Origin: Flavobacteriaceae bacterium
Lineage (GTDB): Bacteria; Bacteroidota; Bacteroidia; Flavobacteriales; Flavobacteriaceae
DNA length: 40,852 nucleotides
Reading direction: 5' to 3'
Assembly: GCA_030835825.1 (NCBI GenBank)
Contig: JAURRA010000023.1
Location: 1 to 40,852 of the forward strand
Positions 30,145 through 34,140 of the stretch are shown here, piece after piece. Position numbers and translations under genes: made by a program. The first letter of the stretch is position 1. The number at the start of each line of letters is the position of its first letter. The notes beneath the pieces are model-generated. The model was given only the letters and a program-made list of their open reading frames with translations, ran no database searches and was not told where the DNA came from.

Positions 30145-31491
30145 ATGCAATCTCAAAAAAAAGTTGGCTTTTACACTTTAGGTTGTAAGCTTAATTTTTC
30201 TGAAACTTCTACCATAGCCCGCTCTTTTGAGCACGAGGGTTTTGTTAGAGTTCCGTTTGGAGATTTTGCCGACATCTATGTGATTAACACTTGTTCGGTA
30301 ACTGAAAACGCCGATAAGCGATTCAGTCAAATCGTGAAACAGGCCTTAAAAAGTAATCCGGAAGCCTTTCTAATTGCAGTAGGCTGCTATGCTCAACTCA
30401 AACCAGAGATTTTAGCCAAGGTGGATGGTGTCGATTTGGTATTAGGGGCATCCGAAAAATTTAAAATTACCGATTATCTTAACGACCTATCTAAGAACGA
30501 CCAAGGCGAAGTGCACTCCTGTGAAATTAAAGAAGCTAATTTTTTTGTTGACAGTTATGCCATCGGCGACCGTACACGTGCCTTTTTGAAGGTCCAAGAT
30601 GGGTGCGATTACAAATGCACCTACTGCACGATTCCACTCGCACGAGGTATCTCTAGAAGCGATTCGCTGTCCAACGTTTTAAAAAACGCTGGGGCTATTG
30701 CACAACAGAATATTAAAGAAATTGTATTAACAGGTGTTAATATCGGTGACTACGGTAAGGGAGAATTTGGAAATAAACAACATGAGCATACCTTCCTTGA
30801 ACTCGTCAAGGCTTTAGACGAGGTTGAAGGCATCAGTAGGTTAAGAATATCTTCGATTGAACCCAATTTGTTGAAAGATGAAACAATACAATTTGTAGCC
30901 AATAGTAAAAATTTCGTGCCCCATTTTCACATTCCGTTGCAAAGTGGTAGCGATATCCTTTTGGCAAAAATGAAAAGGCGATATCGTACAGATTTGTACC
31001 GCAATAGGGTTCATTCTATTTTAACATTAATGCCTGACGCCTGTATTGGTGTGGATGTTATTGTAGGTTTTCCAGGCGAAACAGAAGAGCTTTTCTTGGA
31101 GAGTTATAATTTTCTCAATGAGCTGCCCATTGCATATTTGCACGTGTTTACCTATTCCGAACGGGATAATACGGAGGCCGCTGATTTTGATGGCGTGGTG
31201 CCTTTAGTTGTTCGGAAGAAAAGAAGTAAAATGTTGAGAGGTTTATCGGTCAAAAAAAGAAGAGCATTTTACGAATCACAAATTGGAAAATCAAAAACAG
31301 TACTTTTCGAAAATGAAGTAACAGAGGATGGTTTTTTATTAGGGTTTACTGAAAATTATGTCCGAGTGAAATACCCTTATGACCCAGAGCTCCAAAATAC
31401 ACTTACCAAAATAGCTCTTGAAGAAATTGATAAGGATGGCATTTGTATGGGCAAGATTCAGGTGTCAAACCCTTTTATTACTAACTTATAA
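30145..31491 (+). CDS. mtaB: tRNA (t6A37) methylthiotransferase MtaB
   Basis: A 448-residue radical SAM enzyme that adds a methylthio group to t6A37 of tRNAs reading ANN codons. The N-terminal UPF0004 domain holds one iron-sulfur cluster through Cys14 (TLGCKLN), Cys50 (NTCSV) and Cys81 (VGCYA). The radical SAM cluster is bound by Cys154, Cys158 and Cys161 in GCDYKCTYCTIP. A TRAM RNA-binding domain covers about the last 65 residues. The TLGCKLN opening is typical of MtaB rather than MiaB or RimO. It is transcribed divergently from the peptide-binding lipoprotein across 41 bases, and its end overlaps the convergent gene by 6 bases. Confidence 0.94.
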   Translation: MQSQKKVGFYTLGCKLNFSETSTIARSFEHEGFVRVPFGDFADIYVINTCSVTENADKRFSQIVKQALKSNPEAFLIAVGCYAQLKPEILAKVDGVDLVLGASEKFKITDYLNDLSKNDQGEVHSCEIKEANFFVDSYAIGDRTRAFLKVQDGCDYKCTYCTIPLARGISRSDSLSNVLKNAGAIAQQNIKEIVLTGVNIGDYGKGEFGNKQHEHTFLELVKALDEVEGISRLRISSIEPNLLKDETIQFVANSKNFVPHFHIPLQSGSDILLAKMKRRYRTDLYRNRVHSILTLMPDACIGVDVIVGFPGETEELFLESYNFLNELPIAYLHVFTYSERDNTEAADFDGVVPLVVRKKRSKMLRGLSVKKRRAFYESQIGKSKTVLFENEVTEDGFLLGFTENYVRVKYPYDPELQNTLTKIALEEIDKDGICMGKIQVSNPFITNL

Positions 31492-31782
31492 ACGCAGTCC
31501 AACGGGCAACATGCTTTTATAGCGTCTGTTTTTTCGAATGAACTTAGCAATTGGCGGACTTGTTGGTACAACACTAATGTTGCGCTCAGCAATCTCAGCC
31601 ATTACAAGCTGAATAAACTGTTCTACAAAATTGTCACTCATAATCTCTTCTGGAACGATTAGCTTGGTTAGAAAGATTTTTCTTTCTTGCAAAGAATACT
31701 CAATTTTGGCCATCTGATTGCTCTGAGAAAGCTCAAATTGACGCAAAAATTTGTTGTCTACCAACTCCAATGGATTGTTCAT
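31486..31782 (-). CDS. Small GNAT-like (YjdJ-type) protein with degenerate acetyl-CoA loop
   Basis: A 98-residue protein whose pattern follows the short GCN5-related acetyltransferases of the Acetyltransf_CG/YjdJ type: FELSQSNQMAKIEYSL, FLTKLIVPEE and, at the end, SVVPTSPPIAKFIRKNRRYKSML, equivalent to the usual VPLCPFVAAYIxRHPEYxDLL. The family's acetyl-CoA-binding G-[RK]-G-x-[GA] loop after VPEE is replaced by SDNFV (49-53). Acetyltransferase activity is therefore doubtful. The gene overlaps the end of mtaB by 6 bases on the opposite strand and has its own -7 promoter element. The fold assignment is from pattern recognition and is moderate. Confidence 0.65.
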   Translation of the reverse strand: MNNPLELVDNKFLRQFELSQSNQMAKIEYSLQERKIFLTKLIVPEEIMSDNFVEQFIQLVMAEIAERNISVVPTSPPIAKFIRKNRRYKSMLPVGLRL

Positions 31783-31898: not shown

Positions 31899-32597
31899 AT
31901 GAGACAACCCAAAACCCAAATTTATTTGATCCCCTACATGGGACTTTCTGTCGACATCTTTGAAGGTTTGGTTCTGACTAACAAAGAATTTAAGCAGTGG
32001 TATTTGCCGTGGTTTAGCCCTCTAAACGGGGAGACTATCAGTGCCTATGCCGCTAGGATGTTATCTAAAATAAAGCACCCTACCGAACGCTGTGTCATAG
32101 TTGGTGCTGGATTTGGAGGTGTCATGGCGCAGGAAATGTCTAAACAAGCCCAATTTAAAAAAATTGTTATTATTGCCAGCTTCAAATCGGTTCATGAATT
32201 ATCAGCGAGAATGAAACGCATGTTAGTGGCGAGACAATTTGACTTTATTGCAAATAAACTGTTAGATGACGACAATTTACGCACTGAATTTTTAATTGGG
32301 AGAGCTGGTCTTAAAGCAAAGCAACGCTTTGCGCGTTATACCTTTAACTTTGACAAAGCGTTTTTTAAATGGGCAGTTATGCAATTGTTTACTTGGCATC
32401 AGAAAGAGCCATTGAAGGACATTATTCATATCCACGGTGCCAAAGTTGGTGTAATACCAATTATAAATATCAAAAACTGTATTGTTGTGCCAGGTGGAAC
32501 ACATGCTATTATTCCCTTGAAATCAGACTGGTTTAACGAACATTTACTAAATTTGATTAAAGGGAACCCTTTACAATACGAATATGAAAAAATTTAA
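31899..32597 (+). CDS. Alpha/beta-hydrolase-like protein with altered catalytic triad
   Basis: A 232-residue protein with the layout of the small Bacteroidota alpha/beta hydrolases: IYLIPYMGLSVDIFE at the start, the nucleophile-elbow region CVIVGAGFGGVMAQEM, IIHIHGAKVGVIPI near 175-188 and PGGTHAII near 198-205. Homologues have G-x-S-x-G at the elbow; here the central position is Gly71 (codon GGA) in G69-A-G-F-G73. The usual aspartate in the HGTxD segment is Val183, while the histidine is kept (His202). Two of three triad residues thus seem lost, suggesting a binding rather than catalytic role. The frame is intact, so this is not simple decay. It overlaps the lytic transglycosylase gene by 14 bases, implying co-expression. 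Confidence 0.75.
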   Translation: MRQPKTQIYLIPYMGLSVDIFEGLVLTNKEFKQWYLPWFSPLNGETISAYAARMLSKIKHPTERCVIVGAGFGGVMAQEMSKQAQFKKIVIIASFKSVHELSARMKRMLVARQFDFIANKLLDDDNLRTEFLIGRAGLKAKQRFARYTFNFDKAFFKWAVMQLFTWHQKEPLKDIIHIHGAKVGVIPIINIKNCIVVPGGTHAIIPLKSDWFNEHLLNLIKGNPLQYEYEKI

Positions 32598-33519
32598 ATT
32601 AAATAATTTATTGTTCAGAGGAAACTCAATGGCCTTGTTTGCAGTTTTGTTTACATGCGTTTTTTTCCTTTTCAGAAATGCCGCTTCGAATGAAATGGTC
32701 CCACCTGGGACTCAAGATGCTTCCTACAGAGTTGAGGCAATTCCTTTGCCCGATGACCTCTTTTTTGCCGGAGAAAAAGTTTTGCTCCATGATCCTGATG
32801 TTCAGGAACGATTGGACAGAGAGTTACTAGTAAACACTTATTGGCAGTCGAATGCGCTACTCATGCTTAAACGCGCGAATAAATATTTTCCAATTATTGA
32901 GCCGATCTTGGCAAAAAATGGTGTGCCTGATGATTTTAAATACTTAGCAGTAATTGAAAGCGGTTTGCAAAACGTCACCTCTCCAGCTGGGGCAAAAGGT
33001 TTTTGGCAAATTATGCCCAAAACAGGAAAAGAATATGGCCTAGAAGTCAATACTAATGTCGATGAAAGGTTGCACTTAAAAAAAGCTACAGAAACAGCCT
33101 GTGCATATTTGTTGAAGGCCAAAAGAGAATTGGGCAGTTGGACCTTGGCGGCAGCAGCATATAATGCGGGTGTTTATGGCATTAAAAGAAGGCTTACAGA
33201 GCAACAAGTAGATAATTATTTCGACCTATTGCTTGGAGAGGAAACAGGTCGGTACTTATTTAGAGCTTTGGCCTTAAAAAGAATATTTTCTCACCCTGAG
33301 CACCACGGATTCTTTTTAGACTCAACGTTTTTATATCAACCAGTCGCTTCTAAAGTTGTAGTTGTGGATACTGCCATTACAGATATGGTAAAATTTGCAA
33401 AGGATAATGGTGTCACCTATAAAACATTGAAAATACACAACCCTTGGTTGAAAGATCCATTTTTAAAAAATGCTTCTAGAAAAGTATATGAAATAGAAAT
33501 ACCTTTAGCTGCAGAATAG
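32584..33519 (+). CDS. Lytic transglycosylase (SLT family)
   Basis: A 311-residue peptidoglycan-cleaving enzyme. The N-terminal helix (about 17-33) is a signal anchor or signal peptide. The transglycosylase domain runs from about 100 to 225, with the catalytic Glu125 in LAVIESGLQN, then SPAGAKGFWQIMPKTGKEYGL and the AAAYNAGVYGIKRRL motif. It is similar to MltD-type proteins. The C-terminal 50 residues (VTYKTLKIHNPWLKD) may be a LysM-like element but are not clear. Translation is probably coupled to the alpha/beta-hydrolase-like gene through their 14-base overlap, hinting at a shared envelope role. Confidence 0.92.
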   Translation: MKKFKLNNLLFRGNSMALFAVLFTCVFFLFRNAASNEMVPPGTQDASYRVEAIPLPDDLFFAGEKVLLHDPDVQERLDRELLVNTYWQSNALLMLKRANKYFPIIEPILAKNGVPDDFKYLAVIESGLQNVTSPAGAKGFWQIMPKTGKEYGLEVNTNVDERLHLKKATETACAYLLKAKRELGSWTLAAAAYNAGVYGIKRRLTEQQVDNYFDLLLGEETGRYLFRALALKRIFSHPEHHGFFLDSTFLYQPVASKVVVVDTAITDMVKFAKDNGVTYKTLKIHNPWLKDPFLKNASRKVYEIEIPLAAE

Positions 33520-33538: not shown

Positions 33539-34111
33539 TTACCTCTGATTTTTTCTTCTCATCTGACGATTTCCACCAAAATGTTGATTTGGCATTTGAG
33601 TCTTTTTCATTTGCGACTTTACCATTTGAATTTGTTCTTTTAAAAGTCCTCTTTTGTCGTGGGCTTCGGCCTCTTTTAACAATACTTCAGCCTCCTGCTT
33701 ACGCATTTTTGAAAAAGCGATCCCGGCTAAATTGAGTTTGGCCATGGCCATATCATGCCCCATGGAAAGCCCCAAAGAAACGGCTGTCTTGAAATAACGT
33801 TCAGCTTCATTCATGTTGGTTTGTGAAGACATGATACCCTTCAAATAGTTGTAGTAACCTTGTTGCTTTTTAACTAATGCCCCTTCTGGGTTTTTAATAC
33901 GATCGAGCCAACGGTTAGCGCCCTCGAAATCCTGTTTTCTCAATTTCAAAAATGCCAGTAAAATAAATTCATTTTTAAAATACAAGACCAACACTAGGAC
34001 TCCTAAAAACAATAACGAAATGCCATTGCCAATATTACTTTCAATGAATTGATATGTTGCTCCTGCAAAAATGAGAAGCGTTAATACTAATTTGATATTC
34101 TTGTTGAACAT
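33539..34111 (-). CDS. Membrane protein with TPR-like repeats
   Basis: About 190 residues with two adjacent N-terminal membrane helices (about 8-50, counted from the chosen ATG), then a helical cytoplasmic part with TPR-like pairs: FLKLRKQDFEGANRWLDRI, GYYNYLKGIMSSQTNMNEAERYF and KLNLAGIAFSKMRKQEAEVLL. The C-terminus is basic and Gln-rich. TPRs mediate protein contacts, but no partner is evident. I chose ATG at 34111, because the longer frame starts at a TTG (34135) that lies inside a consensus -7 promoter element. It converges with the lytic transglycosylase gene, 19 bases apart. Confidence 0.75.
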   Translation of the reverse strand: MFNKNIKLVLTLLIFAGATYQFIESNIGNGISLLFLGVLVLVLYFKNEFILLAFLKLRKQDFEGANRWLDRIKNPEGALVKKQQGYYNYLKGIMSSQTNMNEAERYFKTAVSLGLSMGHDMAMAKLNLAGIAFSKMRKQEAEVLLKEAEAHDKRGLLKEQIQMVKSQMKKTQMPNQHFGGNRQMRRKNQR

Positions 34112-34132
34112 GAGTTTTAAATTTGTGGATGG

Positions 34133-34140
34133 CAAATGTA
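34133..34140 (-). promoter_or_regulatory. -7 promoter element of the TPR membrane protein gene
   Basis: TACATTTG on the minus strand fits TAnnTTTG. It ends 21 bases before the ATG at 34111 and overlaps the alternative TTG start, which supports the shorter protein. Confidence 0.5.

Follow-up and report, generated by a model that had tools for sequence, protein, structure and literature searches.

A gene of the alpha/beta-hydrolase fold, abh, was found in the window, that is, the whole stretch of 40,852 nucleotides that was analysed. Its product lacks the catalytic nucleophile, the acid and a glycine of the oxyanion loop. It is probable, at roughly 0.75, that the protein is a pseudoenzyme which is kept by purifying selection and which most likely works by binding. 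The initial annotation had suggested a pseudoenzyme, and this is supported by the loss of the nucleophile, the oxyanion loop and (in the window) the acid, by a fold predicted to be intact, by purifying selection, and by a single match in the genome. The features of abh are as follows.

31899..32597, + strand, abh, probable pseudo-hydrolase gene (intact ORF, 232 amino acids plus stop)
31935..31937, + strand, abh codon 13, Tyr replacing the oxyanion-loop Gly (PGMAA to PYMGL; from the alignment)
32103..32117, + strand, abh nucleophile elbow G69-A70-G71-F72-G73 (codon 71 is Gly for Ser)
32445..32447, + strand, abh codon 183, GTT, Val replacing the catalytic Asp (from the alignment)
32502..32504, + strand, abh codon 202, CAT, His, the one triad residue that is left (present in all 152 rows)
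32584..32597, + strand, 14-nt overlap of abh with the SLT gene (from the ORF coordinates)

Catalytic residues in the window and in the relatives

The reading frame is open from 31899 to 32597, and the ORF of the lytic transglycosylase (SLT) gene starts at 32584, so the intact frame and the 14-base overlap described initially were both found. The elbow of the window protein reads V68-G69-A70-G71-F72-G73-G74, with GGA at codon 71 (32109-32111). The acid position sits in the stretch HGAKVGVIP, and a scan of residues 177-201 of the window protein revealed no Asp or Glu. The nucleophile-acid-His triad is absent from the window protein (Gly71, Val183, His202); this is the Gly at the elbow, the Val at the acid position and the retained His that had been noticed at the outset. 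A third change goes beyond those two losses: Gly13 of the stretch which I take, from knowledge of the fold, to be the oxyanion loop is replaced by Tyr or Phe. From these residues I infer that the activity of abh was lost. The abh proteins of the genus also have two additions that most relatives lack: a short insertion ahead of the elbow strand (around residues 61-65) and, around residues 225-232, the C-terminal extension NPLQY[ED]YEK. The end of the extension falls inside the SLT overlap.

Is this common among the relatives of abh? I examined 157 of 187 loci (the remaining 30 had been collected on account of other genes or were a duplicate), which yielded 152 full-length rows. Five loci were dropped, being over-long (L055), ambiguous in some bases (L056), partial (L065 and L187) or interrupted (L153). 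The 150 rows outside the genus represent 149 genomes, 113 genera and nine families. Ser71, Asp183 and His202 are each present in 150 of the 150 rows, and Gly13 in 149; the remaining row, L045, has a gap there and a Gly in another alignment. The inspection of homologues located beside SLT genes, which had been proposed as a check, covered the 108 loci of this kind that lie outside the genus; Ser71 and Asp183 are present at every one. Recurrent loss of the nucleophile was sought in 60 further members (58 genomes of at most 2.3 Mb and two larger ones) and was not seen: Ser71 is present in all 58 that gave full-length rows, the other two being L153 and L187.

In the family as a whole, 377 of 397 genomes have abh, mostly in a single copy; the residue-level reading covered all but about 240 of these 377 matches, and further losses may exist among the latter. 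Among the matches listed outside the genus, identity reaches 41% and the best E is 5e-50. In 20 genomes, many of them incomplete, abh was not found, and 15 of the 20 are at most 2.3 Mb. The abh copies of genus g5, which has small genomes, appear interrupted (L056 in G007 and L153 in G280), and both keep GVSFGG. Because the copy of G007 has ambiguous bases and that of G280 has a frame-shifted stretch flanked by intact motifs, an assembly error is as likely as decay in these two.

The window genome is a 1.62-Mb assembly of 30 contigs, and the window lies on contig 16. The abh of a sister species (G003) is 76% identical to that of the window and has Phe13, Gly71, Asp183 (GAC, in HGAQD) and His202. 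In a third species (G002), a contig end cuts the copy at residue 62, before the elbow, and Tyr13 is present. Thus, Gly13 is replaced in three of the three genus copies that are readable there (Y, F, Y). Since Gly71 is common to the window species and G003, the nucleophile was lost at least as early as their split. Since G003 has Gly71 but keeps the Asp, the nucleophile and the oxyanion loop were probably lost first and the acid later. Loss of the acid was seen in the window species only; Val183 comes from one genome and Gly71 from two assembled genomes.

The window genome and G003 each have one abh match (E <= 0.001), which means that there is no active paralogue within reach of the search. 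The gene is not a spare duplicate; it is the syntenic orthologue in the order mtaB-abh-slt and the sole match in its genome. Another genome of the genus (G001, 86% complete) is without an abh match, an SLT gene and a close mtaB. This block may be missing or may lie in an assembly gap, so that abh may be dispensable or simply unassembled there.

Predicted fold and the possibility of another chemistry

An AlphaFold2 model of the window protein has a pLDDT of 92.7 and a pTM of 0.91, and that of a canonical relative has 92.6 and 0.89; the elements follow each other in the same way in both. The structure prediction that had been suggested as a check thus returned a retained alpha/beta-hydrolase fold. 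A Foldseek search of the PDB gave 653 matches at E <= 0.001, of which the best 50 are, by name, mostly hydrolases or hydrolase-like receptors; the top ones are esterases, haloperoxidases, BioH and KAI2-type receptors. With VIA-align, 1000 of 1000 chains were aligned to the window model at Z >= 8. The first is BioH (1m33; Z 21.7, rmsd 2.6, 209 aligned residues), followed by esterases from Z 20.8 down; matches within Z 1 of BioH are tied with it. For the canonical model, esterases reached Z 20.0 and BioH 19.4. At the level of sequence, the window protein stays under the Pfam gathering scores of Abhydrolase_5 (16.5 against 27 bits), Abhydrolase_6 (12.4 against 26.3) and UPF0227 (18.2 against 21). 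A single-sequence search of solved structures returned nothing below E 0.046, while a profile search gave weak generic matches (best E 1.7e-05), hydroxynitrile lyases among the weak ones.

Cofactor-free dioxygenases of the alpha/beta-hydrolase fold carry out a nucleophile-free, His-dependent reaction. A reaction of this kind, depending on His202, might have replaced ester hydrolysis in abh. The strict retention of His202 (152 of 152 rows) counts against the binding reading in this respect, as it could mean residual or different chemistry, and the Asp183 of G003, the hydroxynitrile lyase matches and the purifying selection described below would also fit a working enzyme. However, the His would need an acid to tune it, and the window has a Val there, with no Asp or Glu in residues 177-201; in addition, the oxyanion loop carries a Tyr or Phe. 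I consider a changed chemistry unlikely, and prefer a protein that binds.

Gene neighbourhood and the lytic transglycosylase

The neighbours of abh in the window are as follows.

30145..31491, + strand, mtaB, conserved neighbour upstream of abh (TIGR01579, 405.2 bits, cut-off 357)
31486..31782, - strand, small GCN5-like acetyltransferase gene, conserved neighbour (PF14542, 39 bits, cut-off 30)
32584..33519, + strand, SLT-domain lytic transglycosylase, MltD-like, 311 amino acids (PF01464, 63.1 bits, cut-off 21.3)
33539..34135, - strand, conserved gene downstream, no family (from synteny)

The MltD model NF008050 gives the SLT protein 76.2 bits, far under its cut-off of 508. Glu125 (32956-32958), in the motif ESGL, is presumably the catalytic Glu. 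Searches of Pfam and NCBIfam with the product of 33539-34135 gave nothing at E <= 0.01. Among the 152 loci, mtaB is found upstream of abh on the same strand in 123, the small acetyltransferase gene upstream on the opposite strand in 116, and a homologue of 33539-34135 downstream on the opposite strand in 67 (most flanks reach only 1.5-2 kb). An SLT gene lies within 700 nt on the same strand in 110 loci, namely in 107 of 134 in family f1, to which the window genome belongs, and in 3 of 18 elsewhere. These counts are lower bounds because many loci have a flank of only 1.5 kb, and the sample is enriched for small genomes. Both its sequence and its synteny with mtaB and SLT identify abh as an orthologue of the genes at these loci. 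At two loci of family f2 (L043 and L070), an rfbC-like gene, which I take to encode a dTDP-sugar epimerase, separates abh from SLT; at another locus of this family, L045, SLT likewise starts about 630 nt away. The overlap of abh and SLT is probably real, because G003 shares the overlapping ATG, and the following ATG of the window's SLT gene, that of Met16, is a Lys codon in G003.

A link to cell-wall turnover had been suggested for abh at the start. The neighbourhood part of this suggestion stands, since the arrangement is old and common (110 of 152 loci), while the functional tie proved weak, as the two genes also occur separately and Ser71 and Asp183 are intact at all 108 loci with SLT beyond the genus. 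Specifically, abh might be a partner or regulator of the adjoining transglycosylase, which would be a special case of a binding role and compatible with it. The same-strand SLT gene at those loci and an overlap that is kept in both the window and G003 are consistent with such a partnership. On the other hand, the two sequences point to different compartments. The SLT protein has an N-terminal hydrophobic segment (read by eye), and in abh strand beta-1 starts at residue 6 of the model, so that, by inspection, there is no room for a signal peptide before it; in 150 of 152 rows, a G-x-S-x-[GA] pattern is reached 52-71 residues after the abh start. For the same reason, an exported peptidoglycan esterase, such as an O-acetyl esterase, was rejected by this inspection.

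The occurrence of the two genes also argues against a partnership. Among the 20 family genomes in which abh was not found, eight (G049, G136, G257, G292, G309, G358, G415 and G416) have an SLT orthologue (at least 55% identity), seven a weaker match (at most 41%) and five none. Conversely, at 27 family loci abh has no adjoining SLT gene; an orthologue (at least 48%) is elsewhere in 12 of these genomes and absent from 15. One of the 12 (G229) has its SLT gene about 2.4 kb downstream, just past the flank covered. Some of the genomes are incomplete, but cases that are 98-99% complete occur both ways (G049, G309 and G416 without abh; G383 without an SLT orthologue). An obligate partnership is rejected, since each gene occurs without the other. 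In addition, no matching change was found in SLT of the genus (0 of 71 near-invariant columns, see below). The pair seems to be a conserved neighbourhood with a weak tie to cell-wall turnover, and I give the partner role only a slim chance.

Purifying selection after a burst of change

Between the window and G003, the 232 codons of abh differ at 40 first, 24 second and 152 third positions; for this one species pair, pN is 0.143 and pS is 0.956. No finite dN/dS can be given because the synonymous sites are saturated. For the same pair, pN is 0.123 in SLT, 0.105 in mtaB, 0.092 in the downstream gene, 0.162 in a neighbouring substrate-binding-protein gene and 0.041 in carB. The value of abh thus exceeds those of SLT, mtaB and carB and is below that of the substrate-binding-protein gene. 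Of 2000 copies in a neutral simulation, the number without a stop was 309 at 0.05 substitutions per site, 53 at 0.1, 2 at 0.2 and 0 at 0.5. In summary, abh is under purifying selection and is not decaying.

Paired trees were built from the same 57 loci, picked from the 110 with SLT by removing near-identical rows. The stem of the genus has 2.05 changes per column in abh (median tip 0.42) and 0.80 in SLT (median tip 0.36); in a second abh tree, of 79 of the 152 rows, it has 1.78. In the SLT tree, too, no inner branch is longer than the genus stem, which indicates that the genus is fast in general; the abh stem is about two and a half times that of SLT. The tips of the window and G003 are short and alike in the two genes (0.21 and 0.13 in abh; 0.23 and 0.10 in SLT). 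Near-invariant columns served as a control. When all 150 other rows are used for abh, the genus deviates at 3 of 16 columns (positions 13, 71 and 183), against 0 of 71 in SLT, a comparison drawn on unequal row sets; a recount of abh on equal loci, the 108 of the SLT set, gives 9 of 29 (positions 13, 16, 67, 70, 71, 93, 118, 155 and 183) and makes the control stronger. These patterns suggest that abh went through a burst of change and then came under constraint.

It might be argued that abh is on its way out: as the genome shrank, catalysis would have gone first, and the frame that is still open would be a remnant. The 20 genomes in which the gene was not found, 15 of them at most 2.3 Mb, would agree with such a course, as would the stepwise loss, with the acid gone in the window only, and a pN somewhat above that of SLT. 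However, 152 third-position changes against 24 at second positions, the lack of any stop or frameshift across a saturated synonymous divergence, and tips that are not longer than the SLT tips make this highly improbable. As for an assembly or sequencing error at codon 71, which had been named initially as a finding that would overturn the reading, both genomes look like metagenome assemblies and the GenBank contig L031 (JAQCIQ010000010.1) is probably the same assembly as G003 and no third witness, but the idea is hardly credible, as the two species have different Gly codons (GGA in the window, GGT in G003) and share concerted changes at positions 13, 16, 67, 70, 93 and 118.

Proposed course of events and its meaning

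I propose that abh was inherited vertically and is the orthologue of a serine alpha/beta hydrolase that almost every genome of its family, probably the Flavobacteriaceae, carries; its product probably resides in the cytoplasm. In an ancestor of the genus, whose genomes are small, the Ser would have become Gly and the oxyanion-loop Gly a bulky aromatic residue, which would have ended Ser-based hydrolysis. Further near-invariant positions changed too, and in the window species the acid is missing as well. Since then, purifying selection has held abh. Because this selection holds the protein after the catalytic loss, it most likely works by binding, and it is reasonable to suppose that abh is kept for that purpose. 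In or near what was the active site, it may keep hold of the ancestral ligand, or of a partner protein, and leave it uncleaved.

A common explanation of pseudoenzymes is that spare duplicates were put to new use. Such an origin is reported for one case (PMC6549527). For abh, there is a somewhat less than even chance that a serine hydrolase of 377 of 397 family genomes was converted in place in one genus, no duplicate being retained, and serves there as a binding protein or sensor that is no longer catalytic. If this is true, a second role, not enzymatic, was already present in the abh family and outlasted the chemistry. A sole orthologue that was inactivated and then kept would be a natural separation-of-function mutant, and the case raises the possibility that this uncharacterised esterase-like family has a role apart from catalysis.

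Comparison with known systems

BioH-like carboxylesterases (1m33 and 4etw) share the fold of abh and stand at the top of the VIA-align list, but they have only 13-17% identity with it, and their Ser and acid are absent from the window protein. A bioH profile matched 11 of 40 canonical relatives weakly, the best at E 9e-08. A role in biotin synthesis was rejected on occurrence. A bioB gene scores above the cut-off in 48 of 99 relatives, and its distribution does not track abh: some genomes have abh, with Ser71, and no bioB over the cut-off (for example G017, G035 and G043), and others have bioB where abh was not found (for example G066, G069 and G073). Thus, the resemblance to BioH is taken to be one of fold only. 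The missing bioB of the window genus does not explain the loss of the triad either, since many genomes with an intact triad are also without bioB. The UPF0227 family (PF05728) matches abh below threshold (18.2 against 21 bits) and at residues 52-108 only, the elbow region; a canonical relative passes (21.4 bits). NCBIfam names a relative esterase YqiA, whereas the window abh is without the nucleophile.

In the open-licence full-text literature, neither a pseudo-hydrolase of the abh family nor an abh-SLT pair was found. Cfl2, a bacterial alpha/beta-hydrolase, is discussed as a possible pseudoenzyme (PMC8244358); it keeps its catalytic motifs, and the suggestion comes from low activity. Cfl2 is like abh in being bacterial and proposed to be non-catalytic, but no lost residues lie behind that proposal. 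The human NDRG proteins are non-enzymatic members of the fold in which the triad is described as completely substituted and the pocket as obstructed (PMC7022630). They resemble abh in having replaced triad positions on an intact fold; in contrast, abh keeps its His, and the change is seen in one bacterial genus of an otherwise intact family. In the gibberellin receptor GID1, a hydrolase turned non-catalytic ligand receptor, the His is lost and the Ser and Asp contact the ligand (PMC3531792), so the residue pattern is the reverse of that in abh. Pseudoenzymes of the alpha/beta-hydrolase fold are thus already known from NDRG and GID1, and what would be unusual in abh is a conversion at the level of a genus without a retained duplicate.
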